Origin: a virus
Length of the DNA stretch: 38,721 bases
Reading direction: 5' to 3' (one strand)
IMG/VR virus record: IMGVR_UViG_3300042112_000874
Location: 1 to 38,721 of that record
Position numbers and translations under genes: made by a program. Positions 2,158-15,192 of the stretch are shown here, piece after piece. Position 1 is the first letter of the stretch. Every line of letters starts with the position of its first letter. Below the pieces are notes generated by a model, which was not told the origin of the DNA, searched no databases, and saw nothing but the letters and a program-made list of their open reading frames with translations.

Positions 2158-2703
2158 TTAGTCTGCCGAAGTCAAGCGTCCCACCGGCGGCCGTGTTTTC
2201 ATCGCTTTCCTAAAGGCATCCATGTACTCCTTCGACTTTATCACTTCCCTCGAGTACTTCGACCGGTTCTTGTAGTCGGGGAACCCCTCGTCGGACATCA
2301 CCCGCTCCATGTGGGCCTCCTCCTCCGCCATTTCGTCCTCGACCTTCCGGAGGTGCTCTATTGTTCCCTTGAAGGGTTTGTACCTCGACATGAAGCCGAT
2401 GAGACTCTTTTCGAGCGGTTGTGCTGGGTCCTGGATCCAGGTGCCGGGCTCATCCTTGTCCTCGATGTACTGCTCGTAGACGACCCGACCGCCGCTGCAG
2501 GATTCGCTAGTACACTCATCCCGTTTCATCTCAAGCACCCTGGCTATCTGTCCGGCGGAGCCCGAGAAGATGAAGGGATCCGAGATACCAGGCGTGAAGC
2601 GATTCCTGACCGCCTTGGAGCGGAAGTCCACTGGAACAACGTCTCCCTCACGGAGGATCTCCTCACGGACGATTCTGCGAAGCTGTGATTCTGTGATTTT
2701 CAT
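2158..2703 (-). CDS. Tagged protein: shared N-terminal peptide plus unknown 160-residue domain
   Basis: One hundred eighty-one residues starting MKITESQLRRIVREEILRE, a variant of the peptide shared by at least nine proteins in the window. The body (residues 20-181) is charged, with CTSESC in the middle, a Glu/Met-rich helix (EDEMAEEEAHMERVM) and a basic C-terminus; no known domain is recognised. The three adjacent minus-strand genes 3895, 3312 and 2703 all begin with the tag and are separated by only 10-12 bases, so they form one transcription unit. Its length and lack of signal peptide suggest an internal virion or cytoplasmic protein. What the body does is unknown. Confidence 0.85.
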   Translation of the reverse strand: MKITESQLRRIVREEILREGDVVPVDFRSKAVRNRFTPGISDPFIFSGSAGQIARVLEMKRDECTSESCSGGRVVYEQYIEDKDEPGTWIQDPAQPLEKSLIGFMSRYKPFKGTIEHLRKVEDEMAEEEAHMERVMSDEGFPDYKNRSKYSREVIKSKEYMDAFRKAMKTRPPVGRLTSAD

Positions 2704-2715
2704 GTTGATTCCTTG

Positions 2716-3312
2716 TCAAACCATCTGCAAAATGTCGAGGTTCCACAGTGCAAGGAGGGTCGGCGTCCTGCCGTCCTTCCTGCGATACGCCTTCGAGAGC
2801 GAGGACTTGGGCCAGCCATCGTAGCCAACCCAGTTCATCGCACTGTGCTGGTCAAAATTGTCGAGGTGCGTCGGCGTGAGCTTGTCATCCGGGTCGTCGA
2901 GCTGGATCGACTCGATGTCGGGCCTGCTGTTGAGATAGTAGTCCCATACTCTCTTTGCACTGGCGGAGACGGAATCCCTGTCGGACGCAATGGGGTCGGG
3001 ATGGACAGCGTCCATCAGCAAGTCATAGAGGAGCGGGCCCAGTCCCGGGATGCTGACCTTCGATGACTCGACCACCCAGAGCCTCATGCTCTCCCTGCCC
3101 CAACCAGACGGGTGCCAGAGTGGTCCCCTGACCAGCGAAGCAGAGATGCTGCCTGAGCCATCCGGACCCGTGGCCGTGATCTCGACGAGCTTCTCACCAC
3201 TGCTTATCTCGAAGGTGAGTCCCATCTCCACTGCAGTATCGGGAGTGATCATCGCCTCTGTGAGAAGTGTCTCACGGATGAGCTGACGAAGTGTGGATTC
3301 TGTGATTCTCAT
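2716..3312 (-). CDS. Tagged protein with conserved phage domain, paralog 1
   Basis: One hundred ninety-eight residues beginning MRITESTLRQLIRETLLTE. It is a clear paralog of the next upstream gene (3323-3895): both share GLGPL-YDL--D, SDR--VS--AKRVW-YY, a conserved -LDD- followed by LTP, and SSLSKAYRRK-G--PTL near the C-terminus. The GLGPLLYD stretch followed by SDR and AKRVW resembles phage proteins sometimes labelled acetyltransferase-like; I cannot confirm a GNAT acetyl-CoA loop, so treat this as a family of unknown function. AAGGA precedes the ATG. Ends ten bases before the start of the 2158-2703 gene. Confidence 0.85.
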   Translation of the reverse strand: MRITESTLRQLIRETLLTEAMITPDTAVEMGLTFEISSGEKLVEITATGPDGSGSISASLVRGPLWHPSGWGRESMRLWVVESSKVSIPGLGPLLYDLLMDAVHPDPIASDRDSVSASAKRVWDYYLNSRPDIESIQLDDPDDKLTPTHLDNFDQHSAMNWVGYDGWPKSSLSKAYRRKDGRTPTLLALWNLDILQMV

Positions 3313-3322
3313 GTTTCCTTCT

Positions 3323-3895
3323 TCAGTACGAGTCCACGAGGCCGAGTCTCACCAGTGCATCTAAAGTAGGCCTTCCGCCTCCCTTCCGCCTGTAGGCTTT
3401 CGACAGCGAGGAGCTTGACCAATCGCCCTTGTCATGCAGCTTGGCGCTCGTCTGGTAGCAGTTGTCGTCTAGTTCAGGGGTGAGGGTGTTGAACTCATCG
3501 TCCAAATGCAGCTTCTCGATGTCGTCCCTTCGGTCGTGGTAGTAGTTCCACACCCGCTTGGCAGCATCGGAGACATCTTTCCTGTCGGACATTAGAGGGT
3601 GTGGACTGATGACGTCGATCATCAGGTCGTACATGAGGGGACCGAGGCCGTCGATCCTGGCCTGCGAGAACACAATCTGCCAGGCATCGCTGCAGGGGGC
3701 GACGGTCGATGTAGCCGAAAGGGTGCCCACGGCGGAGTCCCTCCCTTCCTTGCGTGCGTAGATGACAGCGCTTTCAGGATACTTGCGAATCTGGAACCTG
3801 AGGCCGAGTTCACTGGCGTATGCTGGTGTCATTGCAACCTCAGTGAGGAGCGCCTCACGGATGAGACTGCGAAGCGTAGATTCAGTGATTCTCAT
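3323..3895 (-). CDS. Tagged protein with conserved phage domain, paralog 2
   Basis: One hundred ninety residues beginning MRITESTLRSLIREALLTE; paralog of 2716-3312, with the same order of conserved blocks (DGLGPLMYDL, MSDRKDVSDAAKRVWNYY, LTPELDDNC, SSLSKAYRRKGG). The start codon lacks a convincing ribosome site; an ATAGTTA element sits only five bases upstream (3901-3907), so if that is a -10 the mRNA could be leaderless. It is the first gene after the terminator of the tRNA-Glu operon. The duplication followed by divergence suggests both copies are retained for related but separate roles. Confidence 0.85.
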   Translation of the reverse strand: MRITESTLRSLIREALLTEVAMTPAYASELGLRFQIRKYPESAVIYARKEGRDSAVGTLSATSTVAPCSDAWQIVFSQARIDGLGPLMYDLMIDVISPHPLMSDRKDVSDAAKRVWNYYHDRRDDIEKLHLDDEFNTLTPELDDNCYQTSAKLHDKGDWSSSSLSKAYRRKGGGRPTLDALVRLGLVDSY

Positions 3896-3900
3896 GCTGA

Positions 3901-3907
3901 TAACTAT
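3901..3907 (-). promoter_or_regulatory. ATAGTTA element next to a tagged-gene start
   Basis: GCATAGTTATC on the minus strand, between the tRNA-Glu terminator and the start codon at 3895. Same heptamer as at 857, 16726, 18837 and 34615. Confidence 0.35.
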
Positions 3908-3916
3908 GCCTCGCGA

Positions 3917-3958
3917 ACCTTAAAAGAACTTTGGGCCGGAATGAATCCGGCCCAAAGT
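3917..3958 (-). terminator. Intrinsic terminator after tRNA-Glu
   Basis: A perfect 13-bp stem (ACTTTGGGCCGGA / TCCGGCCCAAAGT) with a 5-nt loop, followed on the minus strand by TCTTTTAAGG. It begins at the CCA end of tRNA-Glu, so transcript release and tRNA 3' end coincide. Confidence 0.85.
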
Positions 3959-4032
3959 GGTGATCCCACCGGGAGTTGAACCCGGCTTCCGGGGATGAAA
4001 ACCCCGTGTCCTAACCGATAGACGATGGGATC
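3958..4032 (-). tRNA. tRNA-Glu(UUC)
   Basis: Acceptor GATCCCA/TGGGATC, anticodon stem CGGGG/CCCCG with loop TTTTCAT (anticodon TTC), T loop TTCAACT, encoded CCA. Confidence 0.95.
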
Positions 4033-4037
4033 GAAAA

Positions 4038-4301
4038 TTATGATAGCTCTATGAGCCTCTTGGCTCTGAAGTAGTTTCCACCCTTTGCTGCAAGTCCAAC
4101 CTTGAGAAGTGCTTGCCGAATGGATGTCGTTGTCTTGAGTGCGTCAATCATCTCCTCGTCAGACACTCTCTTACCAGACTTTCCCTTGTTCTTGTTTCTA
4201 CCGCGCCATGTATGGGTCATGGAGTGGCAGTTTGGGCAGAGAAGCTCTACATTTTCTCTTGAGTTGTCATGATGGTTACCATTCTTGTGCTCAAGATTCA
4301 A
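4038..4301 (-). pseudogene. HNH endonuclease, 5'-truncated (possible homing endonuclease remnant)
   Basis: Eighty-seven residues from a TTG codon at 4301 (no ATG or ribosome site). It begins NLEHKNGNHHDNSRENVELLC, matching the second half of phage HNH homing endonucleases of the LDHINGNxxDNRxxNLxxLCPNCHSxT type: first His, Asn and the final CPNCH are present, as is the usual C-terminal helix-turn-helix (EEMIDALKTTTSIRQAL, VGLAAKGGNY). The first zinc CxxC pair and N-terminal strand are missing; the frame runs straight into the 3' end of the adjacent tRNA (4308). The tRNA boundary therefore appears to have removed the 5' end. It may be inactive, or it may survive as a mini-nuclease. Confidence 0.7.
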
Positions 4302-4307
4302 AATGAT

Positions 4308-4398
4308 TGGTGTCCCCGGTGGGATTCGAACCCACGATGGTGATTTCTCACGTCGGATTAAAAGTCCGAAACCTTCGGCCAGCTCGGTGCACGAGGAC
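4308..4398 (-). tRNA. tRNA with UUU anticodon and long (type II) variable arm
   Basis: Acceptor GTCCTCG/CGGGGAC, discriminator A, encoded CCA. Anticodon stem TCGGA/TCCGA with loop CTTTTAA reads UUU (lysine), yet the variable region GTGAGAAATCAC forms a long arm as in Leu, Ser or Tyr tRNAs. Body identity and anticodon disagree; see findings. Confidence 0.8.
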
Positions 4399-4404
4399 TC
4401 TGTA

Positions 4405-4480
4405 TGGTTGGGGCGGAAGGATTCGAACCTTCGGATATCGGAGCCAAAGTCCGATGCTCTACCTACTGAGCTACGATCCC
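4405..4480 (-). tRNA. Chimeric tRNA-Gln(UUG)-like gene with broken acceptor stem
   Basis: Anticodon stem TCGGA/TCCGA, loop CTTTGGC (anticodon TTG). The 3' 29 bases (T arm, acceptor 3' strand, CCA) are identical to those of the canonical tRNA-Gln at 5395-5469, but the 5' strand GGGATCG does not match: three of seven acceptor pairs are lost. Either a recombined pseudogene or a tRNA needing repair. Confidence 0.65.
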
Positions 4481-4484
4481 GTTA

Positions 4485-4503
4485 GTTCAGGTGTTTCCTG
4501 AAC
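4485..4503 (-). promoter_or_regulatory. Leader hairpin 4 nt before the second tRNA operon
   Basis: GTTCAGG-AAACA-CCTGAAC on the minus strand, a perfect 7-bp stem between the promoter at 4511-4538 and the first tRNA. Confidence 0.5.
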
Positions 4504-4510
4504 CTTGTCT

Positions 4511-4538
4511 ATAATACATCGACCCAGAGAATTGACAA
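4511..4538 (-). promoter_or_regulatory. Sigma-70-type promoter of the Gln'/UUU/Glu tRNA operon
   Basis: -35 TTGTCA (4533-4538) and -10 TATTAT (4511-4516) with a 16-base spacer, just after the nuclease stop codon. Predicted start lies just before the leader hairpin. Confidence 0.65.
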
Positions 4539-4539
4539 C

Positions 4540-5358
4540 CTACTTCACTTTGCAGGTCTCTTTCTTCGCTTTCGAGTGACCGCCTACGTCTACAGGCCAG
4601 AGAGCCTTTGTGACCGACCCCTTGTCGACCCCAGGTGGGACTGGGAAGGTCACGCCTGTCGCAGCCTCCACTGCGGATATTGAGACAGCCGAGGGAAGGG
4701 GATCAGAGGGCTGCTTCTCGACCTGCCTGAAGATGAAAGCCATCGATTCACCCGTCACGTTGTCAATGATGATCTTGTAGAGGGCCTCGGGGACGACGAC
4801 CTTGCTGTCCCCGATTGTCTTGCTTTTCCCGACCTCGTAGATGTTGCCAGCGTACACAGTGAGGGGGTGCTTCCTCCCCCAGGCCCAGGCTCTTGTCGAG
4901 GCCTCGATGCCCTTCCACACGCCCCTGTTGAGGTTCGGGAGCTGTGGGCTCATGTTGCTCATGAGGAAGGACTCCTGCTCGGTCTGGAGGCTCCAGCTGA
5001 GGTCTGCGTCCGGAACGAGGTGTCCCTTGTCATAACCAGACTTCGCATAGTCTCCCGGTGTCGCCCTGCCTTCCTTCGGAAGAGCCTCGTCTGCGACGAA
5101 TGCGTCCTTCCTTGGGACACAACCGACCGTGTCGGTCGGTGTAACTGTCCATCCGACCCACACGGGAATCTTTGCGACATTATCATGGAGGAGCGCGTAC
5201 CCTTCCTTACATGTCAATGTAGCGCTTGTCTTCGGAGACTGGGGAGCGCCCCAGGGAAGCTCTGTCGAGCACTGTTCGATGGGCTTGTTCGGCTTCTGGT
5301 CCCAGGCAAGAGAAGTGAGCGGGAACAGCAGAAGAGTTGTCAGCAGTATTCTTTTCAT
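4540..5358 (-). CDS. Secreted DNA/RNA non-specific endonuclease
   Basis: Two hundred seventy-two residues from ATG at 5358 (GGAG nine bases upstream); the longer reading from 5382 would begin without a ribosome site. Residues 1-18 are a signal peptide (MKRILLTTLLLFPLTSLA). The body contains YDKGHLVPDAD (residues 109-119), the DRGH active site with Lys for Arg, followed by MSNMSPQ-P-LNRGVWKGIE containing the conserved Asn-rich metal-binding helix. This is the beta-beta-alpha-metal NucA/Serratia nuclease family, which cuts single- or double-stranded DNA and RNA with Mg. Exported location suggests degradation of DNA in the periplasm or after lysis. Cys30, Cys50, Cys80 and a C-terminal Cys may form disulfides. 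It follows the seven-tRNA operon. Confidence 0.88.
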   Translation of the reverse strand: MKRILLTTLLLFPLTSLAWDQKPNKPIEQCSTELPWGAPQSPKTSATLTCKEGYALLHDNVAKIPVWVGWTVTPTDTVGCVPRKDAFVADEALPKEGRATPGDYAKSGYDKGHLVPDADLSWSLQTEQESFLMSNMSPQLPNLNRGVWKGIEASTRAWAWGRKHPLTVYAGNIYEVGKSKTIGDSKVVVPEALYKIIIDNVTGESMAFIFRQVEKQPSDPLPSAVSISAVEAATGVTFPVPPGVDKGSVTKALWPVDVGGHSKAKKETCKVK

Positions 5359-5394
5359 GGTATCTCCAGCACTACGTATCATACCGGAGATTTC

Positions 5395-5469
5395 TGGTTG
5401 GGGCGGAAGGATTCGAACCTTCGAATGCGGGAGTCAAAGTCCCGTGTCTTACCGCTTGACGACGCCCCA
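5395..5469 (-). tRNA. tRNA-Gln(UUG)
   Basis: Canonical glutamine tRNA: TGGGGCG/CGCCCCA acceptor, loop CTTTGAC, encoded CCA. Last gene of a seven-tRNA operon (5957 to 5395). Confidence 0.95.
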
Positions 5470-5470
5470 G

Positions 5471-5546
5471 TGGTGCCCCGAGCGGGATTCGAACCCGCAC
5501 TACAAGAATTTTAAGTTCCTTGACTCTGCCGTTGGTCTATCGGGGC
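5471..5546 (-). tRNA. tRNA-Leu(UAA) with a short variable loop
   Basis: Acceptor GCCCCGA/TCGGGGC, stem AGGAA/TTCTT with loop CTTAAAA (anticodon TAA), only about five bases of variable loop, encoded CCA. Leucine tRNAs of bacteria normally have a long variable arm; this one has a glutamine-like body. Confidence 0.88.
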
Positions 5547-5549
5547 AGG

Positions 5550-5633
5550 TGGTGCGCGAAGAGGGACTTGAACCCTCACACCTTTCGGCACGGGTTCCTA
5601 AGACCCGCGTGTCTGCCATTCCACCATTCGCGC
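5550..5633 (-). tRNA. tRNA-Leu(UAG)
   Basis: Acceptor GCGCGAA/TTCGCGC, loop CTTAGGA, long variable arm (GCCGAAAGGT), encoded CCA; a normal class II leucine tRNA. Confidence 0.95.
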
Positions 5634-5639
5634 GCTGTG

Positions 5640-5716
5640 TGGTCGGGGATGCCGGATTCGAACCGACGACCTCCTGCGCCCAAGGCAGGCGCTCTACCAG
5701 GCTGAGCTAATCCCCG
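5640..5716 (-). tRNA. tRNA-Pro(UGG)
   Basis: Acceptor CGGGGAT/ATCCCCG, anticodon stem CCTGC/GCAGG with loop CTTGGGC, encoded CCA. Confidence 0.95.
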
Positions 5717-5720
5717 AAAT

Positions 5721-5795
5721 TGGTTGTCGAGATCGGGATTGAACCAATGACCCTCGCCTTGTAAGGGCGGTGCTCTTCCACTGAGCTACTCGACA
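5721..5795 (-). tRNA. tRNA-Val(UAC)
   Basis: Acceptor TGTCGAG/CTCGACA, loop CTTACAA, encoded CCA; the outermost anticodon-stem pair is mismatched. Confidence 0.93.
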
Positions 5796-5800
5796 CTGCT

Positions 5801-5877
5801 TGGTAGGTCCGGGCCGACTTGAACGGCCGACCTCTGCCTTATCAGGGCAGCGCTCTAACCAGCTGAGCTACGAACCT
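5801..5877 (-). tRNA. tRNA-Ile(GAU)
   Basis: Acceptor AGGTTCG/CGGACCT, anticodon stem CTGCC/GGCAG with loop CTGATAA, encoded CCA. Confidence 0.95.
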
Positions 5878-5881
5878 TCAG

Positions 5882-5957
5882 TGGTGGAGGCGAGGGGGTT
5901 CGAACCCCTGACCCCCGGCTTGCAAAGCCGGTGCTCTCCCAACTGAGCTACGCCCCC
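5882..5957 (-). tRNA. tRNA-Ala(UGC)
   Basis: Acceptor GGGGGCG/CGCCTCC with the G3-U70 alanine identity pair, stem CCGGC/GCCGG with loop TTTGCAA, encoded CCA. First gene of the seven-tRNA operon; no clear promoter was found in 5958-6016. Confidence 0.95.
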
Positions 5958-6016
5958 AAAGGATAGTCTACTGTATCTGACATCAGGACTTTGTTCACCA
6001 AATGGGTGAAACGGGA

Positions 6017-6424
6017 CTACTTCCCTGCCGGCTTCACTCTCAGGATCTGGTCCTCGGTCCTATAGCCGACGGGTCCTGAAGGGAAGAAGCGACGCTGCAT
6101 TGCGTCCCAAGGGAAAGTCCTTTCGTTGCCACTGTCACCCTTGAATTTCAGGTAGCTCTGGTAAGCCTCGCCGCTGAGACCCTCGCCGCCTGCTCCGAAG
6201 AACTTCGTCATGAGACCGAGACCAGACTTTGCGTCCTCACCGGCCTTTGAGACGAGCCAGTCAACAAAGGTCCAGGTTCCTTCCATCCCATTGATCTCGT
6301 ACTTTGCACCCTTCTTCAGGACTTTTGCGAAATTCTTCGCATCAAGCTCGACAAATCCCTCCGCCGCCTCACGAAGCAGCTCTTCACGGATGACCTGACG
6401 TAGACGTGACTCGGTGATTCTCAT
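6017..6424 (-). CDS. Tagged protein: shared N-terminal peptide plus unknown domain
   Basis: One hundred thirty-five residues beginning MRITESRLRQVIREELLRE, followed by a body with GTWTFVDWLVSKAGEDA, a Gly-rich helix (MTKFFGAGGEGLSGEAYQSYLKF) and a basic tail. No known family. The N-terminal 19 residues match the window-wide tag, the body matches none of the other tagged proteins. Followed 45 bases downstream by the seven-tRNA operon, with a 6-bp stem (TTCACC/GGTGAA) in between that could help termination. Confidence 0.82.
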   Translation of the reverse strand: MRITESRLRQVIREELLREAAEGFVELDAKNFAKVLKKGAKYEINGMEGTWTFVDWLVSKAGEDAKSGLGLMTKFFGAGGEGLSGEAYQSYLKFKGDSGNERTFPWDAMQRRFFPSGPVGYRTEDQILRVKPAGK

Positions 6425-6477
6425 TGCGGTTACTCCATTCTGCTCATTATCTATTCAATGAGCAGCAGGCTTTATGA

Positions 6478-6678
6478 CTATCCTGTCACGTCCTCGACCT
6501 CTCCGTCAAAGGAGAGGCAGAGCTCAGGTTCATGAGGGTGCTCCGTTGACCAGTCCATCGAGCAAGCCCTGGAGAAGTGCTCCACCAGCGTGGGATGATT
6601 GCGCTCGCACCACTGGCGGAGCGCCTCGTGAACCTCGTCCCTGCTGAAATAGAGGTTCACCATCTTCATCTGCCTCAT
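6478..6678 (-). CDS. Unknown 66-residue protein
   Basis: The ATG at 6678 overlaps the stop of the tiny membrane peptide (ATGA), giving translational coupling. The peptide starts MRQMKMVNLYFSRDEVHEALRQWCERNHP and ends with acidic residues. Two internal Met residues (4 and 6) could also serve as starts. Not recognised; soluble, mixed alpha/beta in appearance. Confidence 0.65.
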   Translation of the reverse strand: MRQMKMVNLYFSRDEVHEALRQWCERNHPTLVEHFSRACSMDWSTEHPHEPELCLSFDGEVEDVTG

Positions 6679-6776
6679 CCGCCCGCCGACATCACGAGGA
6701 TCGGCATCGAGAAGAGGACGATGATACCGATGACGACTGCCGCAAACTCAATCTTACTCTTTGTCTCGAAACTCAT
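6675..6776 (-). CDS. 33-residue single-span membrane peptide
   Basis: ATG at 6776 to TGA at 6675. Residues 1-10 are polar (MSFETKSKIE), residues 11-29 form one hydrophobic helix (FAAVVIGIIVLFSMPILVM). Its ATG follows the end of the 6779 gene by two bases and its stop overlaps the next start, so it fits the tight operon. Could be a small holin-like or inner-membrane modulator; no family can be assigned. Confidence 0.55.
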   Translation of the reverse strand: MSFETKSKIEFAAVVIGIIVLFSMPILVMSAGG

Positions 6777-6778
6777 GC

Positions 6779-7096
6779 TTACTCCTTGATCCGAAGGACC
6801 TTGTAGGGATAACCGTGGTAGTTGGTCTGGTCACTGTCCGCCATCTCGAGGAGGCCCTCCTTGAAGAGCTTTCGAATCTGGCGGTGGACATTGGTGAAGC
6901 CGTCTCCCTCCATGAGGTAGATTCCGGATCGGAACCACAGTCCCGATGAGGACCAGTATCCGATGCTGCCGAATCCAATGGCCTCCTCAAAGCTTGCCAT
7001 CCGCATTGTCCCAGGACAGATGTAACCGTTGGAACGGGATGCGACGAGGAACTTCGATTCCTTGAACTTGTTGAGCAGTGCCTGCGAGTCTTTCAT
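6779..7096 (-). CDS. Unknown protein with winged-helix-like C-terminus
   Basis: One hundred five residues from ATG at 7096 preceded by GGAGACAAA; the upstream extension to 7138 lacks a ribosome site. The C-terminal half reads VHRQIRKLFKEGLLEMADSDQ then YPYKVLRI, the usual recognition-helix plus wing pattern of a small winged-helix domain, suggesting DNA binding. The N-terminal half (GYICPGTMRMASFEEAIGFG) is unrecognised. Lies 16 bases after the nucleotidyltransferase gene. Confidence 0.6.
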   Translation of the reverse strand: MKDSQALLNKFKESKFLVASRSNGYICPGTMRMASFEEAIGFGSIGYWSSSGLWFRSGIYLMEGDGFTNVHRQIRKLFKEGLLEMADSDQTNYHGYPYKVLRIKE

Positions 7097-7112
7097 TTTG
7101 TCTCCTTTGTGT

Positions 7113-7994
7113 CTACTTTGCTGCCTGTCCAATCTCATGGAGGGCCCAGTCGACCTGGGTTCGTTCCTGACTCAAGGGACTCGCTCCCATCTGGTAGTTG
7201 TCCTTCTTGTCGCTGATGAACTCCGTCCACTTTCCGAGGAACATGATGAGGTCGGACTTCCCAATGTGTCCACCACTGACGAGTCGCTTCACGGCTGACT
7301 GGACACCGTTGAGGTGACGCTCTGTGAATCCCGGAAAGTTGTCGCCCGCAGCCTTCGCAAGCCACTCCACGAGGAGCGGATATGAGGACTCCTCGATGCC
7401 GTCATAACCTCGGTACTTCATGTACTTTAGGATGCGGGATCCGAGGAAGGGAGAGTGTGTCTGGTTGATGCGGAGCTTTCGGCTGGCCTCCAGCTCATAC
7501 CAGTCCTTTGGGTGGATGAGGACATCGCCCACCAGGGCAACCTGACAATTGACCATGTCGAAACGGGAGATGCACTCCTCGGGAGTCCTGCTGACGAGGT
7601 CGGGCCTGTCGATGAGCTGGACTTTGAAGTTGATGTCCCGCTTCTCAGGGATGACCGCGGATGTCATCGAGACCCAGTCCATGGTCTCCTGTGCAAAACC
7701 CGCCATGGAACGACGGTCATTGAAGGAGCTCGTCGTCCTCTTGGCGCCCTCTTCCGAGGTGAAGAAGACATCGACGTCACCTGCGTGTGCGTAACCGCCC
7801 TTCCTGTCGGACTGACTGAAATACTCACGGAGAGAGTCACCACGGAGGAGCGCTCGCGCAAATCCGCCTGCAACAAAACCACCGTTGAAGAGTGAATTTC
7901 GCATGCGGGAGGAACCCCCGAGGATGGCTCTCATGATCTCCATGTTCTCACCCTTGACAACATCGAGGACATGGGTCTCTGTGAACTGGGCCAT
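7113..7994 (-). CDS. Polymerase-beta superfamily nucleotidyltransferase
   Basis: Two hundred ninety-three residues from ATG at 7994 (AAGGTG upstream); a longer frame would run into the tRNA-Lys gene. Residues 38-52 contain NGGFVAGGFARALLRG and residues 72-78 GDVDVFF, the Gly-rich start and paired Asp (D73, D75) of a nucleotidyltransferase palm. Later INFKVQLID supplies a plausible third acidic residue. FDMVNCQVALVG and the ILKYMKYRGYDG helix fit phage nucleotidyltransferases of unknown substrate. The gene directly follows the Ile-Arg-Lys tRNA operon, so a role in tRNA end repair is attractive but unproven. Confidence 0.72.
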   Translation of the reverse strand: MAQFTETHVLDVVKGENMEIMRAILGGSSRMRNSLFNGGFVAGGFARALLRGDSLREYFSQSDRKGGYAHAGDVDVFFTSEEGAKRTTSSFNDRRSMAGFAQETMDWVSMTSAVIPEKRDINFKVQLIDRPDLVSRTPEECISRFDMVNCQVALVGDVLIHPKDWYELEASRKLRINQTHSPFLGSRILKYMKYRGYDGIEESSYPLLVEWLAKAAGDNFPGFTERHLNGVQSAVKRLVSGGHIGKSDLIMFLGKWTEFISDKKDNYQMGASPLSQERTQVDWALHEIGQAAK

Positions 7995-8023
7995 TGTGCA
8001 CCTTGTGAAGGGTGGATCTGAGA

Positions 8024-8099
8024 TGGTGGAACGGGTGGGGGACGATCCCACGACCTAATGATTAAGAGTCATTTGCTCTACCAACTGAGCTACCGTTCC
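8024..8099 (-). tRNA. tRNA-Lys(CUU) with inverted T-loop pair
   Basis: Acceptor GGAACGG/CCGTTCC, loop CTCTTAA, encoded CCA. The T loop reads ATCGTCC rather than TTCGAAT: T54 and A58 are exchanged (A54, T58), which keeps complementarity at this conserved pair. Confidence 0.9.
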
Positions 8100-8105
8100 A
8101 AGAAA

Positions 8106-8182
8106 TGGCCTCACCAGATGGATTCGAACCATCGACCCGCAGCTTAGAAGGCTGCTGCTCTATCCAGCTGAGCTATGGTGAG
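8106..8182 (-). tRNA. tRNA-Arg(UCU)
   Basis: Acceptor CTCACCA/TGGTGAG, stem GCAGC/GCTGC with loop CTTCTAA, discriminator G, encoded CCA. Confidence 0.95.
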
Positions 8183-8188
8183 AAGAAA

Positions 8189-8264
8189 TGGTAGGCGGGG
8201 TGGGGATTGAACCCACGACCGGTCGGATATAAGCCGACTGCTCTGACCGCTGAGCTACCCGCCT
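8189..8264 (-). tRNA. tRNA-Ile(UAU)
   Basis: Acceptor AGGCGGG/CCCGCCT, stem GTCGG/CCGAC with loop CTTATAT (anticodon TAT), encoded CCA. A UAU-anticodon isoleucine tRNA reads AUA directly, avoiding the lysidine-modified CAU tRNA that most bacteria use. Confidence 0.93.
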
Positions 8265-8326
8265 GTAAGGGACAGAGATCTTATTGAGCAGATTTAGTGG
8301 CATCCACGACCGGACCAGCATGATAG

Positions 8327-8354
8327 ACTATAAACAGGAAGGAGGAGTGTTCAA
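8327..8354 (-). promoter_or_regulatory. Sigma-70-type promoter of the Ile-Arg-Lys tRNA operon
   Basis: -35 TTGAAC (8349-8354, overlapping the thioredoxin stop codon) and -10 TATAGT (8327-8332), 16-base spacer. A leader of about 55 bases precedes the first tRNA. Confidence 0.55.
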
Positions 8355-8662
8355 AGGCTCCGCAACTTCTCAACCAATCCCCTCACTCCAGCTTCGTTGG
8401 CACCGACCAGCGTGTCGACCACCTTGCCGTTGTGGAATCCGATGACAGTTGGGACTGCCTGCACCTTCATCTTCTGGGAGAAGAGCTCACCGCCCTCGAT
8501 ATCCACGTAGGCGAAGACAATGTCCGGGGTCTCGAAGGAGATCTTCTCGGTCTTCGGCTTCAGCAGCTTGCAGGGCATGCACCAGGCGGCCCCGAACTGG
8601 ACGATCACGTGGGTGTTGCCGTCGACAAAGTCTTGGATATTTTCATCGTTGCGGTTGATCAT
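8351..8662 (-). CDS. Thioredoxin
   Basis: One hundred three residues with the active site WCMPC (residues 27-31), the preceding strand HVIVQFGAA, the following AYVDIE strand and the cis-proline AVPTVIGF. This is a full-length single-domain thioredoxin; CMPC replaces the common CGPC, which shifts redox potential in related proteins. It would reduce disulfides in the cytoplasm, for example to feed a ribonucleotide reductase or act as a polymerase factor. The start overlaps the stop of the membrane protein gene (8659) by four bases. Phage thioredoxin or glutaredoxin genes are common. Confidence 0.92.
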   Translation of the reverse strand: MINRNDENIQDFVDGNTHVIVQFGAAWCMPCKLLKPKTEKISFETPDIVFAYVDIEGGELFSQKMKVQAVPTVIGFHNGKVVDTLVGANEAGVRGLVEKLRSL

Positions 8663-8940
8663 CTCTTCTCCCTGTAAGGCACCACAGATGCCATGAACTT
8701 CTCTGAGTCTATTCTCACATGCATCCGGACTGATAAGGTGCTTCCCTCTTCAGTCCGAATTACCGTGATCTCATTCGTGAATGGGTGGTGCTCGATCACT
8801 TCAGCGACATAGCGCTTCATGTATGTGCCGTAGGTCCACTTTGTTCCGATTGCAGGGAACTTTGCGGACCGCTGACGAGCAAACCACGCAATGTGGGCTG
8901 TGACAGCAATGATGATGGAAAGACCGAACAGAGTTGCCAT
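8659..8940 (-). CDS. Small membrane-anchored protein
   Basis: Ninety-three residues; residues 1-20 form a membrane helix (MATLFGLSIIIAVTAHIAWFA) followed by basic RQR, then a beta-rich cytoplasmic domain (TKWTYGTYMKRYVAEVIEHHP, EITVIRTEEGSTLSVRMHVRID). Translationally coupled to thioredoxin. No family recognised. Confidence 0.65.
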   Translation of the reverse strand: MATLFGLSIIIAVTAHIAWFARQRSAKFPAIGTKWTYGTYMKRYVAEVIEHHPFTNEITVIRTEEGSTLSVRMHVRIDSEKFMASVVPYREKR

Positions 8941-8951
8941 GTAAGTAATTA

Positions 8952-9028
8952 TGGCTCCCGCTGGTGGACTTGAACCACCGACCCACGGATTAACAGTCCG
9001 TTGCTCTAACCAACTGAGCTAAGCGGGA
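8952..9028 (-). tRNA. tRNA-Asn(GUU)
   Basis: Acceptor TCCCGCT/AGCGGGA, discriminator G, stem ACGGA/TCCGT with loop CTGTTAA, encoded CCA. Confidence 0.95.
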
Positions 9029-9034
9029 ACAAAA

Positions 9035-9109
9035 TGGAGCGGAAGACGGGATTCGAACCCGCGACCAACAGCTTGGAAGGCTGTGACTCTACCCCTGAGT
9101 TACTTCCGC
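9035..9109 (-). tRNA. tRNA-Gly(UCC)
   Basis: Acceptor GCGGAAG/CTTCCGC, discriminator U, stem ACAGC/GCTGT with loop CTTCCAA, encoded CCA. Confidence 0.95.
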
Positions 9110-9113
9110 AAGG

Positions 9114-9190
9114 TGGCGTCCTCGGCGCGGTTCGAACGCGCGACCCCCAGTTTAGGAAACTGGTGCTCTATCCTGCTGAGCTACGAGGAC
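9114..9190 (-). tRNA. tRNA-Arg(CCU)
   Basis: Acceptor GTCCTCG/CGAGGAC, discriminator G, stem CCAGT/ACTGG with loop TTCCTAA, encoded CCA. First tRNA of the Arg-Gly-Asn operon that continues into the membrane protein and thioredoxin. Confidence 0.95.
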
Positions 9191-9197: not shown

Positions 9198-9216
9198 GTT
9201 GGTTTGTCTAACCAAC
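9198..9216 (-). promoter_or_regulatory. Leader hairpin before the Arg-Gly-Asn tRNA operon
   Basis: GTTGGTT-AGACA-AACCAAC on the minus strand, perfect 7-bp stem, seven bases before the first tRNA and just after the promoter. Confidence 0.5.
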
Positions 9217-9222
9217 GTTCGT

Positions 9223-9252
9223 ATTATAATCCACTCAGCGTAGATTGGACAA
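9223..9252 (-). promoter_or_regulatory. Sigma-70-type promoter of the Arg-Gly-Asn tRNA operon
   Basis: Perfect -10 TATAAT (9223-9228) and -35 TTGTCC (9247-9252) with an 18-base spacer. Confidence 0.7.
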
Positions 9253-9256
9253 CCTT

Positions 9257-9478: not shown

Positions 9479-9511
9479 CTTGTGTTCCTCCGGACATAAT
9501 CTATACTCTGG

Positions 9512-10317: not shown

Positions 10318-10733
10318 TTTCTCTTCTCCTCGCATCCACTGCACAGAGTCTTCACCCAGCTTCCCTTGACGGGTTTCCCAGGATTCCCACACCTCTCACA
10401 AGTCCGCATTGACATCGACTCTGCCATCGCGAGGATTCCATTCACGTACTCGCTGTGGTTGTCGATGTAGAAGCGGAGACCGCCGAACTTCTCCTTCACC
10501 TGCGCGGCCTTCACCTGCACTGTCTCCTCAAACTCCTCTGGGGTGAGATGTCGCTTCCCGAGGTGGTGTTCCATGTGACTCATGATGTTGACACACGCGG
10601 CGTCAATGATGTCATACCACCCGTCACCGACATCGATACCGTAAGACACGACCTTCCGCTCGCCCGTCTCGTCCTTCCTCGTGAAGATCTCGGGGTACTT
10701 GTCGATGAGCTTCTTCTCAAGCTCAGGGGACAT
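10314..10733 (-). CDS. Protein with C-terminal zinc ribbon
   Basis: One hundred thirty-nine residues. The middle contains VKEKFGGLRFYIDN and the C-terminus a four-cysteine zinc ribbon, CERCGNPGKP then TLCSGCEEK (residues about 111-137). This arrangement (KEKFGGLRFY followed by CxxCG-PG and C-xC) is seen in uncharacterised phage and bacterial proteins. It may bind nucleic acid. The start lies 11 bases inside the upstream gene; the downstream gene is coupled by GTGA. Confidence 0.72.
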   Translation of the reverse strand: MSPELEKKLIDKYPEIFTRKDETGERKVVSYGIDVGDGWYDIIDAACVNIMSHMEHHLGKRHLTPEEFEETVQVKAAQVKEKFGGLRFYIDNHSEYVNGILAMAESMSMRTCERCGNPGKPVKGSWVKTLCSGCEEKRK

Positions 10734-11067
10734 CGCTCCCTCCTTTCTTAGATACCTCGTCCACGAAACCGGGATAGAACCCGGTGCCCTCTTTCAGGTG
10801 TCTGACGAGGTTCTGTGGACCGTAGCCCTCGTCATCGCAGTGGGACTCCCAGTGCTCGACAATCTCCTGGTGGGCTGCAAGCATCACGGTCCGGAGACGA
10901 AGGTTCTCCTGTGCAAGACGGGTGACCTCATTCTGCAGAGCCAGAACTTTGCTGGGCTCGCTCACCCACTGAGCAAACTGTCGAATGACTCCCTTTTCAG
11001 ACTCGAGAAGCTTGCGTATGTCTTCCTCGTCAATGTGATGCAACCACTTGGGAAGTACGTCACTCAT
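10723..11067 (-). CDS. Coiled-coil protein of unknown function
   Basis: One hundred fourteen residues. Residues 30-75 have a heptad-like pattern (ALQNEVTRLAQENLRLRTVMLAAHQEIVEHW) predicting a coiled coil, followed by a C-terminal segment containing PQNLVRHLKEGTGFYPGF. No family recognised. Overlaps its neighbours by 8 and 11 bases. Confidence 0.65.
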   Translation of the reverse strand: MSDVLPKWLHHIDEEDIRKLLESEKGVIRQFAQWVSEPSKVLALQNEVTRLAQENLRLRTVMLAAHQEIVEHWESHCDDEGYGPQNLVRHLKEGTGFYPGFVDEVSKKGGSDVP

Positions 11068-11395
11068 TCTTTTCTCCCTTCTTCAGCCTGAGGTTCTCTA
11101 ACCACCCATTGAAAGCTTCGGGATCCCAGTTGTCCTTCTTGTGATCGGATGACGGGTCCTGCCCCCACTGCGACTCAACCCAGCCTTCAACAATCTTGCG
11201 CCAAAGAGTCACATCAACCCTCAGCAGGAGGGTCGGCTTTCGACCTTCACCCTCGCGCCAGTCTACCCTTTCAGTGTCGAGAGACGCCGCCCAACCCTCA
11301 CCTTCGAGCTGGAGGTAGACGTTGTCGTTCTCGAAGCATTCCTGGTAGAGATGAAAGTCTTTCTGGTCATACGCGATAGTGCACCGTGTACTCAT
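11060..11395 (-). CDS. Unknown 111-residue protein
   Basis: Start taken at ATG 11395 (MSTRCTIAYD, with GGAG upstream) rather than 33 bases further up. The opening MSTRCTIAYDQKDFHLYQECF is the N-terminus of a family of small phage and plasmid proteins of unknown function. Trp-rich C-terminal half. First gene of the leftward operon; a divergent promoter region lies upstream. Confidence 0.7.
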   Translation of the reverse strand: MSTRCTIAYDQKDFHLYQECFENDNVYLQLEGEGWAASLDTERVDWREGEGRKPTLLLRVDVTLWRKIVEGWVESQWGQDPSSDHKKDNWDPEAFNGWLENLRLKKGEKNE

Positions 11396-11413
11396 TACCA
11401 CTCCGTCAAATTG

Positions 11414-11442
11414 ATTGTTATTCGACACACGCAGTTGTTCAA
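11414..11442 (-). promoter_or_regulatory. Candidate leftward promoter in the divergent region
   Basis: TTGAAC (11437-11442) and AACAAT (11414-11419) with a 17-base spacer, pointing to the 11395 gene. A weak opposite promoter (TTGTTA then TTCAAT, 17-base spacer) overlaps it and would serve the rightward operon at 11469, so the two directions may compete. Confidence 0.4.
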
Positions 11443-11468
11443 TACTCTGCGAAAGGATACATTAACGC

Positions 11469-12203
11469 ATGAGAATCGGAATCTTCGGGGGCGGATTCAA
11501 GCCCTTCACATCAGGTCATTTCTCGAAGCTTGCTCTCGCGTCTGCAGAGAACGATGAGGTCCTCCTCTTCTACGGCATTGCCGAGAGGAAGAAGGGCTCC
11601 GACTATCTCTACACGAAGGAGATGGCAGAACAGGTCTTCGAAATCGCAAAGGGCGCAATTGAGAGAGAGATGCCCAATGTCAACGTCATCAAGGCGAAAC
11701 CGACTCCCATTGTGATGGCTTTCGAGGCGATCCAAGCGTTTGCAGGCGTCCTCGACTCGCCGAAATTCTTTCGTTACTCCGACTACGGAATCAATGTCGG
11801 TGACGTAGACGAAGTAACTCTTTACGGAGACCAGGACACTGTCAATGAGTACATGATCTATGCAGAAGATCCTGTAAAGGGACCGAGGTACTACGGCACG
11901 ACTCTTCAGGATGGAACCCTTCACTTTGACACAGGAATGGTCGAGGGAGACGACTCTCGGATCATCAACGCCGTGATGAGGTTCCACCCGGGCGGTGACG
12001 CCGGTGAGATCCGCGCGAGGAACCTCGTGAGGGGGTCTGAGGTGAGGGCGTCCATCGCTTCCAGGAACCCCGAGACAATCACTCGCTTCCTCCCTCCCAT
12101 CTACACTCCCGATGAGAAAGCGGCAGTCATCGACATCCTCTACCGGGGACTGTCGGAAAACACGCTTCGACGCGCCATCCGCGCAATGATTATGGTCGGA
12201 TAG
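11469..12203 (+). CDS. Cytidylyltransferase-like nucleotidyltransferase
   Basis: Two hundred forty-four residues, first gene of the rightward operon, with AAAGGA upstream of the ATG. Residues 4-17 read GIFGGGFKPFTSGH, the nucleotide-binding (T/H)xGH motif of the HUP-type nucleotidyltransferase superfamily (NMN/FAD adenylyltransferases, cytidylyltransferases). A later LVRGSEVRASIAS matches the second nucleotide-binding motif (S-x-x-x-R). Catalysis would be transfer of a nucleotide from NTP to a phosphorylated acceptor; related phage proteins are linked with NAD or tRNA metabolism but the substrate cannot be read from sequence. Followed after 12 bases by a tagged gene. Confidence 0.8.
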   Translation: MRIGIFGGGFKPFTSGHFSKLALASAENDEVLLFYGIAERKKGSDYLYTKEMAEQVFEIAKGAIEREMPNVNVIKAKPTPIVMAFEAIQAFAGVLDSPKFFRYSDYGINVGDVDEVTLYGDQDTVNEYMIYAEDPVKGPRYYGTTLQDGTLHFDTGMVEGDDSRIINAVMRFHPGGDAGEIRARNLVRGSEVRASIASRNPETITRFLPPIYTPDEKAAVIDILYRGLSENTLRRAIRAMIMVG

Positions 12204-12215
12204 CAGGAGAACCAG

Positions 12216-12566
12216 ATGAGAATCACAGAGTCACAGCTCAGAAGAATAGTTCGCGAAGAGGCAAAGCGCCTTGTCGAGAGCTCTGCGATGTCTAATCAAT
12301 TTACGGGTGAGGAGCTCAACTCTGACCCTCTTTTCGTTGAAACTTTGGCCGCTGTATTGCAAGAGCGCGGTAGGCGCTACCCAAGGCTCATGAGAGCTCT
12401 TGATGTTGGGAACGCACAGTACCCTGGGCATCTCATGGACCAGATCCTCGATAGGTTGGCAGAAATGAAGGCCTCCGGTGAAAACATCGCCGGCTTCTTC
12501 AACAGCATCCTGACACCTGGACAGATCGCAGAAATTAAGGCAGGCATCCGCGCTCAAATGAGATAG
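12216..12566 (+). CDS. Tagged protein: shared N-terminal peptide plus helical domain
   Basis: One hundred sixteen residues beginning MRITESQLRRIVREEAKRL, then an all-helical body (FVETLAAVLQERGRRYPRLMRAL, MDQILDRLAEMKASGENIAGFF, PGQIAEIKAGIRAQM). GGAGAA lies 8 bases before the ATG. No match to a known family; the 19-residue start is almost identical to five other proteins encoded within the next 3 kb. Confidence 0.88.
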   Translation: MRITESQLRRIVREEAKRLVESSAMSNQFTGEELNSDPLFVETLAAVLQERGRRYPRLMRALDVGNAQYPGHLMDQILDRLAEMKASGENIAGFFNSILTPGQIAEIKAGIRAQMR

Positions 12567-12613
12567 CCCGAGGGAAAGATTTTGGAAACAAGCACAAAAT
12601 TGCGGAAGCACGG

Positions 12614-13885
12614 ATGATCAGACAGCTTATCCGAGAGATGCTCATGCTGGAGAACGGCCCCGAGGCCCACATCCTCAACTTCTACGAGGACCTCGACATG
12701 CCCCTCTCCGAGTTCAAGGAGGCCATCAGGGCCCTTCTCGATGCCCAGGTGGAGGACGTCGAGGAGAAGATGGACGGACAGAACCTCACCTTCACAGTGA
12801 GGAACGGAGAGGTCGAGACATTCTCCAAGGGAGCCTCCTGGGCATCCGTCCAGCGTGGTGGCAAGAAGATCGCCGACTACGAGGCCCAGTATGCCGACCG
12901 CCCACAGGTGAGGGACGCCTTCAAGAGGGCATACGCCTCCCTCCAGTCCGCTGCAGATGTCGATCCCGGTCTCACGTCTCGGCTCTTCAGGGACGGCGGC
13001 GTGGTGGTGGAGTCACTCATGATGCTCCCCGAGAATCCCAACACCATCGTCTACGACAGGCCCACCATCCGATTCGTTCGGGCCTACCCGATGGACCCAG
13101 CGCTCGGTGGTCAGGTGGACCAGGAGGCCTATCGGCAGTTCCTCGCTTCGGCTTCTTCCCTTGATGTTGCCGTACCGATGGGTGAGGTTCCCATCCTCAA
13201 GCTGCAGAAGGTCCTCAATTCTGACCAGGTGGCCAGCGACCTCGAGGCCGACCTCGACGCGCTCATTGCTGAGGCCGGTGTCAATGAGACATCCACCATG
13301 GGTGACCTCATCGTGGGACTCGTGAAGACCCGCCTCGAGGCCGACGGTATGAGTCCTGATGTCGCAGCAAGGGTCGCAATTCGACTCGGTCGCGGTGAGA
13401 AGGCGGCATTCTCTGCGAAGGACGCGAAGGCTGTGGGACCCGGCGTCTGGGAGAAGGTCCAGGGAATGGAGTCCGGTCCATACGTCGACGAGGCCATCAT
13501 CCCCATCGAGAGGATCCTCCAGAAGCTCGCAGTCCAGGTCTTCCGCAACCTGGAGTTCGTCCTCTCGTCCAATCGAACGGAGTCCGGTGATGCCCTTCGG
13601 TCCTTCGTCCGGCAGACTCGGGATGCCGTGAAGGGTGGTCGACTCATTGCCGATCCATCCCAGACCGAGTCCATCAGGGTTGCACTCGAGAGGATCGGTG
13701 ATGAGGCGGCATTCGAGAAGGCGGTTGAGGGAATCGTATTCCGGTGGAAGGGAAAGACCCGGAAACTCACTGGACTCTTTACACCCATCAATAAGCTTCG
13801 TGGATTCTTCGCCTATGGGAAGACTCCAGCAAGAATTTCAACAGAGTCTCGAAAGAGATACTTACCATTTGGGAGGATTGGGTAA
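12614..13885 (+). CDS. RNA/DNA ligase-like adenylyltransferase
   Basis: Four hundred twenty-three residues. Motif I of covalent nucleotidyltransferases is visible as EEKMDGQNLTF (Lys52 in KMDG), a motif III-like GGVVVESLM near residue 130, motif IV as EGIVFRWKG (Glu372) and a motif V-like KLTGLF after it. This suggests an RNA-ligase-like enzyme that would adenylate itself and seal nicks, with the long insert between motifs III and IV being unusual. The N-terminus (MIRQLIREMLMLENG) resembles a shortened form of the shared tag (LR-LIRE). Neighbouring nucleotidyltransferases suggest a nucleic-acid repair module. Confidence 0.65.
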   Translation: MIRQLIREMLMLENGPEAHILNFYEDLDMPLSEFKEAIRALLDAQVEDVEEKMDGQNLTFTVRNGEVETFSKGASWASVQRGGKKIADYEAQYADRPQVRDAFKRAYASLQSAADVDPGLTSRLFRDGGVVVESLMMLPENPNTIVYDRPTIRFVRAYPMDPALGGQVDQEAYRQFLASASSLDVAVPMGEVPILKLQKVLNSDQVASDLEADLDALIAEAGVNETSTMGDLIVGLVKTRLEADGMSPDVAARVAIRLGRGEKAAFSAKDAKAVGPGVWEKVQGMESGPYVDEAIIPIERILQKLAVQVFRNLEFVLSSNRTESGDALRSFVRQTRDAVKGGRLIADPSQTESIRVALERIGDEAAFEKAVEGIVFRWKGKTRKLTGLFTPINKLRGFFAYGKTPARISTESRKRYLPFGRIG

Positions 13886-13886
13886 C

Positions 13887-14123
13887 ATGAGAATCACAGA
13901 GTCGCAGCTTAGAAGGATCGTCAGGGAGGAGGCCAAGAAGTTCAAGAAGGGAAAGAGAATCAACGAGAGCTTTCCTGGAGCGAATGAGGAGCTCTTCAAC
14001 GCGATGGAGAGCTTCGTCCAGGGCTGGATGGATGAATCGGGAGTCGAAGACCCTGCAGGAGCATGTAGGGCTCTTCTCAGTGAGGTAGAGGCCTTCTGTC
14101 AGGCATTCGAAGAGAACTACTGA
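13887..14123 (+). CDS. Tagged small acidic protein
   Basis: Seventy-eight residues from ATG at 13887, two bases after the ligase-like stop. MRITESQLRRIVREEAKKF is followed by a basic stretch (KKGKRINES) and an acidic helical body (EELFNAMESFVQGWMDESG, CRALLSEVEAFCQAFEENY). Unrecognised body. GGAGG lies about 14 bases upstream. Confidence 0.85.
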   Translation: MRITESQLRRIVREEAKKFKKGKRINESFPGANEELFNAMESFVQGWMDESGVEDPAGACRALLSEVEAFCQAFEENY

Positions 14124-14124
14124 G

Positions 14125-14502
14125 ATGAGAATCACAGAGTCACAGCTTCGTAAGATCGTCCGTGAGGAGGCCCGACTTCTGATGAAGGAGGACAAGGGCG
14201 GCCTCTATGACTACGAGCTCGCGATCCTCGCGTACATGCGAGACGGTGCCACAGAGGAGGAAGACATCCGTGTAAACGCTGGTCGAACGTACATGTTTGA
14301 TGCGATTCCTCGTGCCAACTTCAAGGCCTCAGTGGACACCCTCGTGAAGATGGGCCTTGTCACTCGTGGAGGAATGAGCGGTGACATGAGGGCAATGGGA
14401 CCTGGGAGAGGTGCCCGAATGGGAATGGACGTTGACTTCCTGACACTCACGCCGAAGGGTGCGAGAGAGGCAAGAACAGCAGATCGATACATTGGGAGAT
14501 GA
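14125..14502 (+). CDS. Tagged protein with winged-helix-like body
   Basis: One hundred twenty-five residues. MRITESQLRKIVREEARLL is followed by YDYELAILAYMRDGATEEEDIRV, then IPRANFKASVDTLVKMGLVTRGG, a helix-turn-helix plus wing (SVDTLVKMGLVTR, DFLTLTPKGAREA), the usual pattern of small winged-helix DNA-binding or restriction-control proteins. So at least one tagged protein carries a DNA-binding-like domain. Confidence 0.82.
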   Translation: MRITESQLRKIVREEARLLMKEDKGGLYDYELAILAYMRDGATEEEDIRVNAGRTYMFDAIPRANFKASVDTLVKMGLVTRGGMSGDMRAMGPGRGARMGMDVDFLTLTPKGAREARTADRYIGR

Positions 14503-14503
14503 G

Positions 14504-14755
14504 ATGAGAATCACAGAGTCACAGCTTAGAAAGATCGTCCGTCAGGAGGCAAGGCGCCTCCTCGAGTCAGGCATGCCGGGAGCATCAGCATTTGATCAGG
14601 CGGTTGACATCTTCTCAGAGGCGATTATCAATGGCGAGAACGTCGACGTTGGTTCTCGCCGTTGGCTCCAGGTCCTCGACCTCGGGCTCGACGAGGAGGC
14701 TGCTTATGATGCTGTCGATCAAGCCTACGCCAGCACATCAGCTGAGCTTGACTAA
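14504..14755 (+). CDS. Tagged small helical protein
   Basis: Eighty-three residues from ATG at 14504; MRITESQLRKIVRQEARRLLE then a short helical body (DQAVDIFSEAIINGENVDV, LQVLDLGLDEEAAYDAVDQAYAS). It starts two bases after the preceding stop. Same tag, unrelated body. Confidence 0.85.
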   Translation: MRITESQLRKIVRQEARRLLESGMPGASAFDQAVDIFSEAIINGENVDVGSRRWLQVLDLGLDEEAAYDAVDQAYASTSAELD

Positions 14756-14765
14756 AGAGAGCACA

Positions 14766-15131
14766 ATGAGAATCACAGAGTCGCAGCTTAGAAAGATCAT
14801 CAGGGAAGAGATGGGTCGTCTCAGTGAGAACGTCGGCATGTCACCCGGCCCTATTTCTTCATCACAGGAGTTCAAGGCACTCCAGCCCGGTGATCGAATC
14901 AAGGTCAATGGATCTCCATGCGTAGTGGTCGAGTATGATTCATTCTCAGCGACCCTAAAGTACACACGGGAAGGAAAGTCCACGCTATCGAGCCTCGATG
15001 CCCGACTTGCCTGGGCATGGGAACCTGGTGAGCGTCCTGAGATCAGCGTCGAGTGGATTTCGACAGGGGCACCTCCTGATAGGGTCCGACGTGCTCCCCG
15101 TCGTCGCACTTCATACTCTTACTACGATTGA
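14766..15131 (+). CDS. Tagged protein with SH3-like beta body
   Basis: One hundred twenty-one residues beginning MRITESQLRKIIREEMGRL, then a beta-rich segment LQPGDRIKVNGSPCVVVEYDSFSATLKYTREGKSTLSS resembling an SH3-like or KOW-type barrel, and an Arg/Tyr-rich tail (RRAPRRRTSYSYYD). The basic tail suggests contact with nucleic acid or with a charged capsid surface. Confidence 0.85.
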   Translation: MRITESQLRKIIREEMGRLSENVGMSPGPISSSQEFKALQPGDRIKVNGSPCVVVEYDSFSATLKYTREGKSTLSSLDARLAWAWEPGERPEISVEWISTGAPPDRVRRAPRRRTSYSYYD

Positions 15132-15138
15132 GGATAAC

Positions 15139-15192
15139 ATGAGAATCACAGAGTCACAGTTGAGGAAGATCGTCCGTGAGGAGTACAGGTAA
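15139..15192 (+). CDS. Stand-alone 17-residue copy of the shared tag
   Basis: ATG at 15139 to TAA at 15190-15192 encodes MRITESQLRKIVREEYR and nothing else. The stop overlaps the ATG of the next gene (TAATG), so ribosomes finishing the tag may restart on the nucleotidyltransferase. A -1 shift within the last codons would fuse tag and enzyme in one frame; no slippery heptamer is visible. Either a free peptide, a coupling leader or a tag whose fusion has been broken by a frameshift. Confidence 0.7.
   Translation: MRITESQLRKIVREEYR

Follow-up and report, generated by a model that had tools for sequence, protein, structure and literature searches.

A shared N-terminal peptide as a probable capsid-targeting propeptide of T4-like large phages

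Tagged genes and their cargo

The window, i.e., the whole stretch of DNA analysed here, comprises 38,721 nucleotides (38.7 kb; positions 1 to 38,721 of the IMG/VR virus record IMGVR_UViG_3300042112_000874). Many of its small proteins begin with nearly the same peptide, called the tag hereafter, which is considered below as a probable address for the phage head. An ATG-started M[RK]ITESxLRx[IVL][IV]R[EQ] occurs ten times, at the start of nine proteins of 78-198 aa and of one open reading frame (ORF) of 17 aa. The sequence-only reading had noted a near-identical N-terminus on at least nine proteins. This was confirmed, as all ten starts are exact (2703, 3312, 3895 and 6424 on the minus strand; 12216, 13887, 14125, 14504, 14766 and 15139 on the plus strand). 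The tags of the nine proteins are as follows; a slash marks the predicted cut position of gp21, the T4-type prohead protease.

2647..2703, minus strand: MKITESQLRRIVREEILRE/ on protein 2158-2703 (181 aa), with the cut predicted behind E19
3256..3312, minus strand: MRITESTLRQLIRETLLTE/ on protein 2716-3312 (198 aa), body GNAT-like by way of its paralogue's model
3839..3895, minus strand: MRITESTLRSLIREALLTE/ on protein 3323-3895 (190 aa), whose body is predicted to have a GNAT-like fold, beginning at about residue 20
6368..6424, minus strand: MRITESRLRQVIREELLRE/ on protein 6017-6424 (135 aa)
12216..12278, plus strand: MRITESQLRRIVREEAKRLVE/ on protein 12216-12566 (116 aa)
13887..13967, plus strand: MRITESQLRRIVREEAKKFKKGKRINE/ on protein 13887-14123 (78 aa)
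14125..14190, plus strand: MRITESQLRKIVREEARLLMKE on protein 14125-14502 (125 aa), M-K-E in place of the canonical [LI]-x-E
14504..14566, plus strand: MRITESQLRKIVRQEARRLLE/ on protein 14504-14755 (83 aa)
14766..14828, plus strand: MRITESQLRKIIREEMGRLSE/ on protein 14766-15131 (121 aa)

The bodies behind the tags had been described as unrelated, which holds with one exception. The proteins 2716-3312 and 3323-3895 are paralogues (49% identity), and therefore the nine proteins represent eight body families; no other relation was found among them. At the DNA level, the mean pairwise identity of the window tags is 0.77 across the 45-bp tag and 0.25-0.29 in the flanking blocks on both sides. The changes within the tag are chiefly synonymous: between the window copies, the proportion of synonymous differences (pS) is 0.52 and that of nonsynonymous differences (pN) 0.16, a ratio of 0.30. 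Selection thus acts on the peptide and not on the DNA alone. The late-promoter motif TATAAAT does not occur in the window.

As for the cargo, searches of the window's tagged proteins against Pfam and PHROGs gave no significant match. Among 98 tagged proteins searched with Pfam, clear names were obtained only for a NUDIX hydrolase and a DUF5824 protein. Judged by these searches, the tagged bodies are nearly all orphans. The structural model of 3323-3895 (mean predicted local distance difference test score, pLDDT, 77) has a loose helix of low confidence at residues 5-17, followed by a confidently folded, compact body from residue 20. GNAT acetyltransferases came top in the fold search, with weak scores (PDB, E 0.003 and template modelling score 0.42-0.43; viral, E 2e-4). 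The GNAT-like proteins of the window have no homologues in annotated phages. As a lead from the model, at least one cargo family may acetylate some host target. The model of 2158-2703 was of low confidence and too poor for a fold search.

Spread of the tag and the phages that carry it

A degenerate pattern of 14 tag codons matched 43 stretches in IMG/VR. Neither the reversed pattern nor the same codons in permuted order had any match in IMG/VR, which excludes a chance origin of the tag. In bacterial and archaeal genomes (257 Gb), two contigs matched. One of them, NHDW01000006.1 (306 kb; loci L115 and L116), belongs to a metagenome-assembled genome of Methylococcaceae (TMED69). It carries gp21 and the core A protein described below in addition to the tag, and is therefore a large phage that was binned as a bacterium. 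On these counts, the tag is virus-specific.

At least 168 tagged proteins were gathered from the fetched loci, and 163 of their bodies fall into 127 families, 109 of which have a single member. The number per stretch can be high, with 21 tagged proteins in G022 and 27, mostly in tandem, in G018 (201 kb). Searches by tblastn of annotated phages gave no match, neither with the bare 20-aa peptide nor with core A, and hence no cultured relative with proteomics was found. Mel-JY01, immuto and RM378, the nearest relatives by gp23, have no tags according to the pattern; LR756508 (uncultured, 484 kb) has six diverged ones. The peptide is not named in the open-licence literature, which covers few subscription journals. 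Together with the tblastn result, this may explain why the tag has escaped notice.

The tag is linked to phages with gp21 and gp23. PF03420 (T4 gp21 prohead protease) was found in 15 of the 29 tag-bearing source records, and PF07068 (gp23) likewise in 15 of the 29. Both occur together in eight of the nine source records above 95 kb. By comparison, gp21 was present in one of 28 random IMG/VR contigs (Fisher p 6e-5), and the excess persists among records of at least 40 kb alone (Fisher p 0.04). The gp23 of the tag-bearing phages matches solved T4 capsid chains. Proteins of the window match those of G005 (locus L007, up to 97% identity), G006, G014 and G003, and the last three each encode gp21 and gp23. 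The window also has two genes related to these phages' head modules:

34207-34599 and 34677-35072, minus strand: two relatives of a protein of about 131 aa that is encoded between gp21 and core A in related modules

Head module, predicted cut site and interpretation

Thirteen head modules from tag-bearing records were compared, each as far as the fetched stretch extends. Their common order is gp17, gp20, a protein of about 284 aa, gp21, often the protein of about 131 aa, core A (139-190 aa), core B (81-105 aa), others, gp22 and gp23. All 13 are T4-like in that terminase, portal, S77 protease, scaffold and gp23-type capsid protein are encoded in synteny. A profile trained on tags other than those of core proteins was run over the 266 ORF N-termini of these modules. 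Each of its 34 best matches is a tagged protein, a core A (in 13 of 13 modules), a core B (in 11 modules) or a small protein encoded near gp20. The remaining head genes rank below, and the median over all ORFs is -28 bits. The profile thus ranks core A and core B with the tags, i.e., cargo proteins and small proteins of the prohead-core type share one kind of N-terminus. From place, size and density of gp21-type sites, we infer that core A and core B are components of the prohead core.

A second line of evidence is the boundary between tag and body. T4 gp21 cleaves after L/I-X-E, and the propeptides of the T4 internal proteins (IPs) are 10-19 residues long (PMC9026906). The criteria for finding tags cover residues 1-14 only, and the cut site was scored with the residue before the cut (P1) at residues 15-28. 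There, [LI]-x-E is found in 100 of 140 non-redundant tagged proteins (71%), compared to 40.7 +/- 5.0 in shuffled sequences (29%). The motif is present in 10-18% of deeper segments of the tagged proteins and in 23% of untagged ORFs of the same contigs, while [LI]-x-D, -K and -R at residues 15-28 of tagged proteins reach 8-13%. When one tag was taken per contig (40 contigs), the values were 77% observed, 33% shuffled and 12% deeper. About half of the tagged proteins have S, A or G directly behind the cut (P1'), and the information per position falls from about 1-2 bits before the site to 0.1-0.4 bits after it. Eight of the nine window proteins have the canonical site, the exception being 14125. 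In addition, 2158-2703 and its relative in G014 (L069) are conserved from residue 20, right behind the predicted cut, and have diverged in the tag.

The same type of site marks the head proteins. Occurrences of [LI]xE[ASGN] are enriched in gp22 (135 vs 41 expected), gp21 (43 vs 7), core A (26 vs 5.5) and gp23 (43 vs 18), and unenriched in the portal (18 vs 25) and the terminase (10 vs 6). This matches the division expected between proteins that T4 gp21 processes and those that it leaves intact. In all 13 modules, gp23 carries L[KR]E or I[KR]E with S, A or V as the next residue, near the start of the mature T4 chain.

The helix is amphipathic and rich in Leu, Arg and Glu, and most bodies are small orphan proteins, a type that often binds host proteins. 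It might thus be an oligomerisation or docking module that is unconnected with the capsid and is used among the tagged proteins or towards a cytosolic partner from phage or host, for instance a chaperone or RNA polymerase. Such a module would predict neither a boundary specific for E in [LI]-x-E, nor the likeness to core proteins encoded beside gp21, nor the restriction to gp21/gp23 phages, and it is considered improbable. An amphipathic helix could also bind lipid, and T4 proheads form on the membrane (PMC5694885). Proteins might then be directed elsewhere, be it the inner membrane of the host, the head exterior or a phage nucleus. The tag nevertheless resembles core-type N-termini and ends in a prohead-protease site, and no gene named here suggests a phage nucleus, for which no dedicated search was made; we regard this explanation as highly improbable.

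The sequence-only reading had favoured a T4-like capsid-targeting tag removed by the prohead protease. The co-occurrence with gp21 and gp23, the tag-like N-termini of core-type proteins and the [LI]-x-E boundary all support it. The peptide is, with good confidence, the propeptide or capsid-targeting sequence (CTS) of a T4-like large phage, in a new sequence. Docking, cutting, packaging, injection and cargo function of the tagged proteins would proceed as follows. Each tagged protein would be made with an N-terminal amphipathic helix of 18-27 residues. The helix would dock the protein on the prohead core, composed of the gp22 scaffold and two small core proteins with a like helix, before the gp23 shell closes. 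During prohead maturation, the gp21 protease would cut after the [LI]-x-E behind the helix, and the helix fragment would be lost. The freed body would remain among the packaged DNA until its ejection into the next host. As to function, the bodies might be fast-exchanging host-takeover or counter-defence proteins, as T4 IPI-III and Alt.

The resemblance to T4 is one of design. In T4, the CTSs of IPI, IPII, IPIII and Alt are likewise short N-terminal peptides on otherwise unrelated small proteins and end in L/I-x-E, and phages of the tag lineage have gp21, gp22 and gp23 as T4 does. The tag is longer (about 18-27 vs 7-19 residues), and it has many more users, with different bodies: nine in 38.7 kb and 27 in one 201-kb genome, compared to three IPs and Alt in T4. 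T4 gp67 (80 aa) and gp68 (141 aa) are similar in size to core B and core A, and likewise lie beside gp21, ahead of gp22 and gp23. The order differs, however (gp67-gp68-gp21 in T4, gp21-A-B here); the likeness of A and B to gp67 and gp68 is one of size and location and not of sequence, and the tag profile finds tag-like N-termini on core A and core B but none on gp67 and gp68. Protease-removed N-terminal propeptides are also known from internal head proteins of phiKZ and SPN3US, and in giant phages some diverged paralogues among the head proteins have identical short N-termini (PMC5694885; PMC10052503). In contrast to the tag, the phiKZ and SPN3US sites are S-x-E or A-x-E, the SPN3US propeptides mostly comprise 111-254 residues, and the phage lineage is a different one.

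Several points weigh against a CTS. The tag profile scores the CTSs of T4 ipI, ipII and ipIII at background, i.e., there is no detectable sequence similarity that would point to descent from the T4 CTSs. The claim is rather that the tag works like a CTS despite this dissimilarity, because the CTS class is defined by function and the sequence marks T4's own set. In about 29% of the tagged proteins, 14125 among them, residues 15-28 contain no canonical [LI]-x-E. Recently duplicated tags, such as the 27 in G018, are not independent, although the test with one tag per contig holds regardless. G017 (104 kb, possibly a fragment) has neither gp21 nor gp23, and none of gp21, gp22 and gp23 is encoded in the window, itself a fragment whose kinship is inferred via its relatives. 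Finally, these phages are known from sequence alone.

Gene turnover and a possible second address

Tagged genes are gained and lost as units. The DNA of the window and of L007 is 83-92% identical on either side of such genes. For instance, 12216-12566 is entirely absent from L007, and a tagged gene of L007 (131 aa) is absent from the window. An array of variable composition is found between two conserved genes:

12614..13885, plus strand: RNA-ligase-like protein of 423 aa, left border of the variable tagged array; RNA_ligase match under the curated cut-off
15139..15192, plus strand: 17-aa ORF, a deletion scar in which the head of a tag is joined to the final codons of a lost 72/73-aa tagged gene
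15192..15995, plus strand: conserved untagged protein of 267 aa, right border of the variable tagged array

The start of the left border protein, MIRQLIREML, is perhaps a truncated tag. Between the borders, four tagged genes and the 17-aa ORF are found in the window, two tagged genes in L118 and only a 16-aa scar in L119. The 17-aa ORF had been noted earlier as a stand-alone copy of the tag. It is present with the tag sequence, and yet it is no functional unit: L117 and L118 hold the end of an intact 72/73-aa tagged gene at its place, with identical last codons (..EEYR), and it is therefore a deletion scar. A free peptide or a frameshift leader was considered for this ORF and rejected. The scar of L119 lies at the same place and differs from that of the window, i.e., two distinct deletions of tagged genes took place. 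The window's scar apparently formed at the short repeat TGAGGAG, common to the tag and the end of the lost gene.

These events raise the possibility that it is chiefly a DNA element that is conserved, a means of spreading genes by recombination or a set of translation signals, with the peptide incidental. The tags of one genome are indeed alike in DNA and mark the edges of genes that were gained or lost, and the 17-aa ORF is a recombination scar. The pN/pS of 0.30 and an identity limited to the tag speak against it, as does the use of different codons for the same peptide in unrelated genomes. It is hardly probable as the main explanation; recombination at the tag probably does occur, but as a secondary matter.

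Four of the tags lie among the window's 19 tRNA genes, and in T4 ipI, ipII and ipIII adjoin the tRNA cluster. The ip genes differ between relatives of T4 (PMC9026906; PMC3012670), as the tagged genes do. The 19 tRNA genes (1699-9190) and a phage-encoded transfer-messenger RNA (tmRNA) gene (899-1265) are found on the minus strand, and a further tRNA-Pro lies at 30326.

Moreover, one gene of the window possibly encodes a second kind of packaged protein, as suggested by its two ends:

27777..28715, minus strand: HAD-like protein with a short CTS-like start, KLVDILFE/D; its last residues, ERWAYLAGIRR, resemble the C-terminus of the gp22 scaffold

Among 3029 ORFs, C-termini of the RWxxLA type were otherwise found only in gp22 scaffolds, in core A and in a single protein of L034 (323 aa), which also shares the KLVDxLFED start of the HAD-like protein. 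These observations concern the window and the locus L070. In G006, the HAD-like protein and its 336-aa neighbour (26797-27807, minus strand) are joined in a single 642-aa ORF. This neighbour has an internal tag-like LKIGEAALRSIIRRELIRE at residues of about 43-60, behind a KKGLWHNIWAKRRRGERPARPGEKGYPKT leader. Other genes of the window, all on the minus strand, were classified by inspection. The 1191-aa product of 22199-25774 has Asp-rich thrombospondin-type-3-like repeats and an OmpA-like C-terminus, which is unusual for a phage contig. The products of 17606-18559, 19180-20571 and 37898-38677 resemble an NAD-dependent sugar-nucleotide epimerase, a DNA ligase and a DNA methyltransferase, respectively.

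A wider picture is put forward tentatively, and is held to be somewhat doubtful. In these uncultured phages, an unusually large and quickly changing set of injected proteins, with dozens of different orphan effectors per virion, could be loaded by means of one interchangeable tag, the DNA of the tag could serve as a recombination joint for swapping cargo, and a C-terminal RWxxLAG, as on the scaffold, could be the address for larger enzymes.

If the tag is a CTS, a simple sequence signature would reveal which head-carried proteins an uncultured phage delivers at infection. More than 100 orphan proteins would become candidate early effectors or counter-defence proteins. The dispensable and hypervariable 'internal protein' strategy of T4 would thereby be open to large-scale study.

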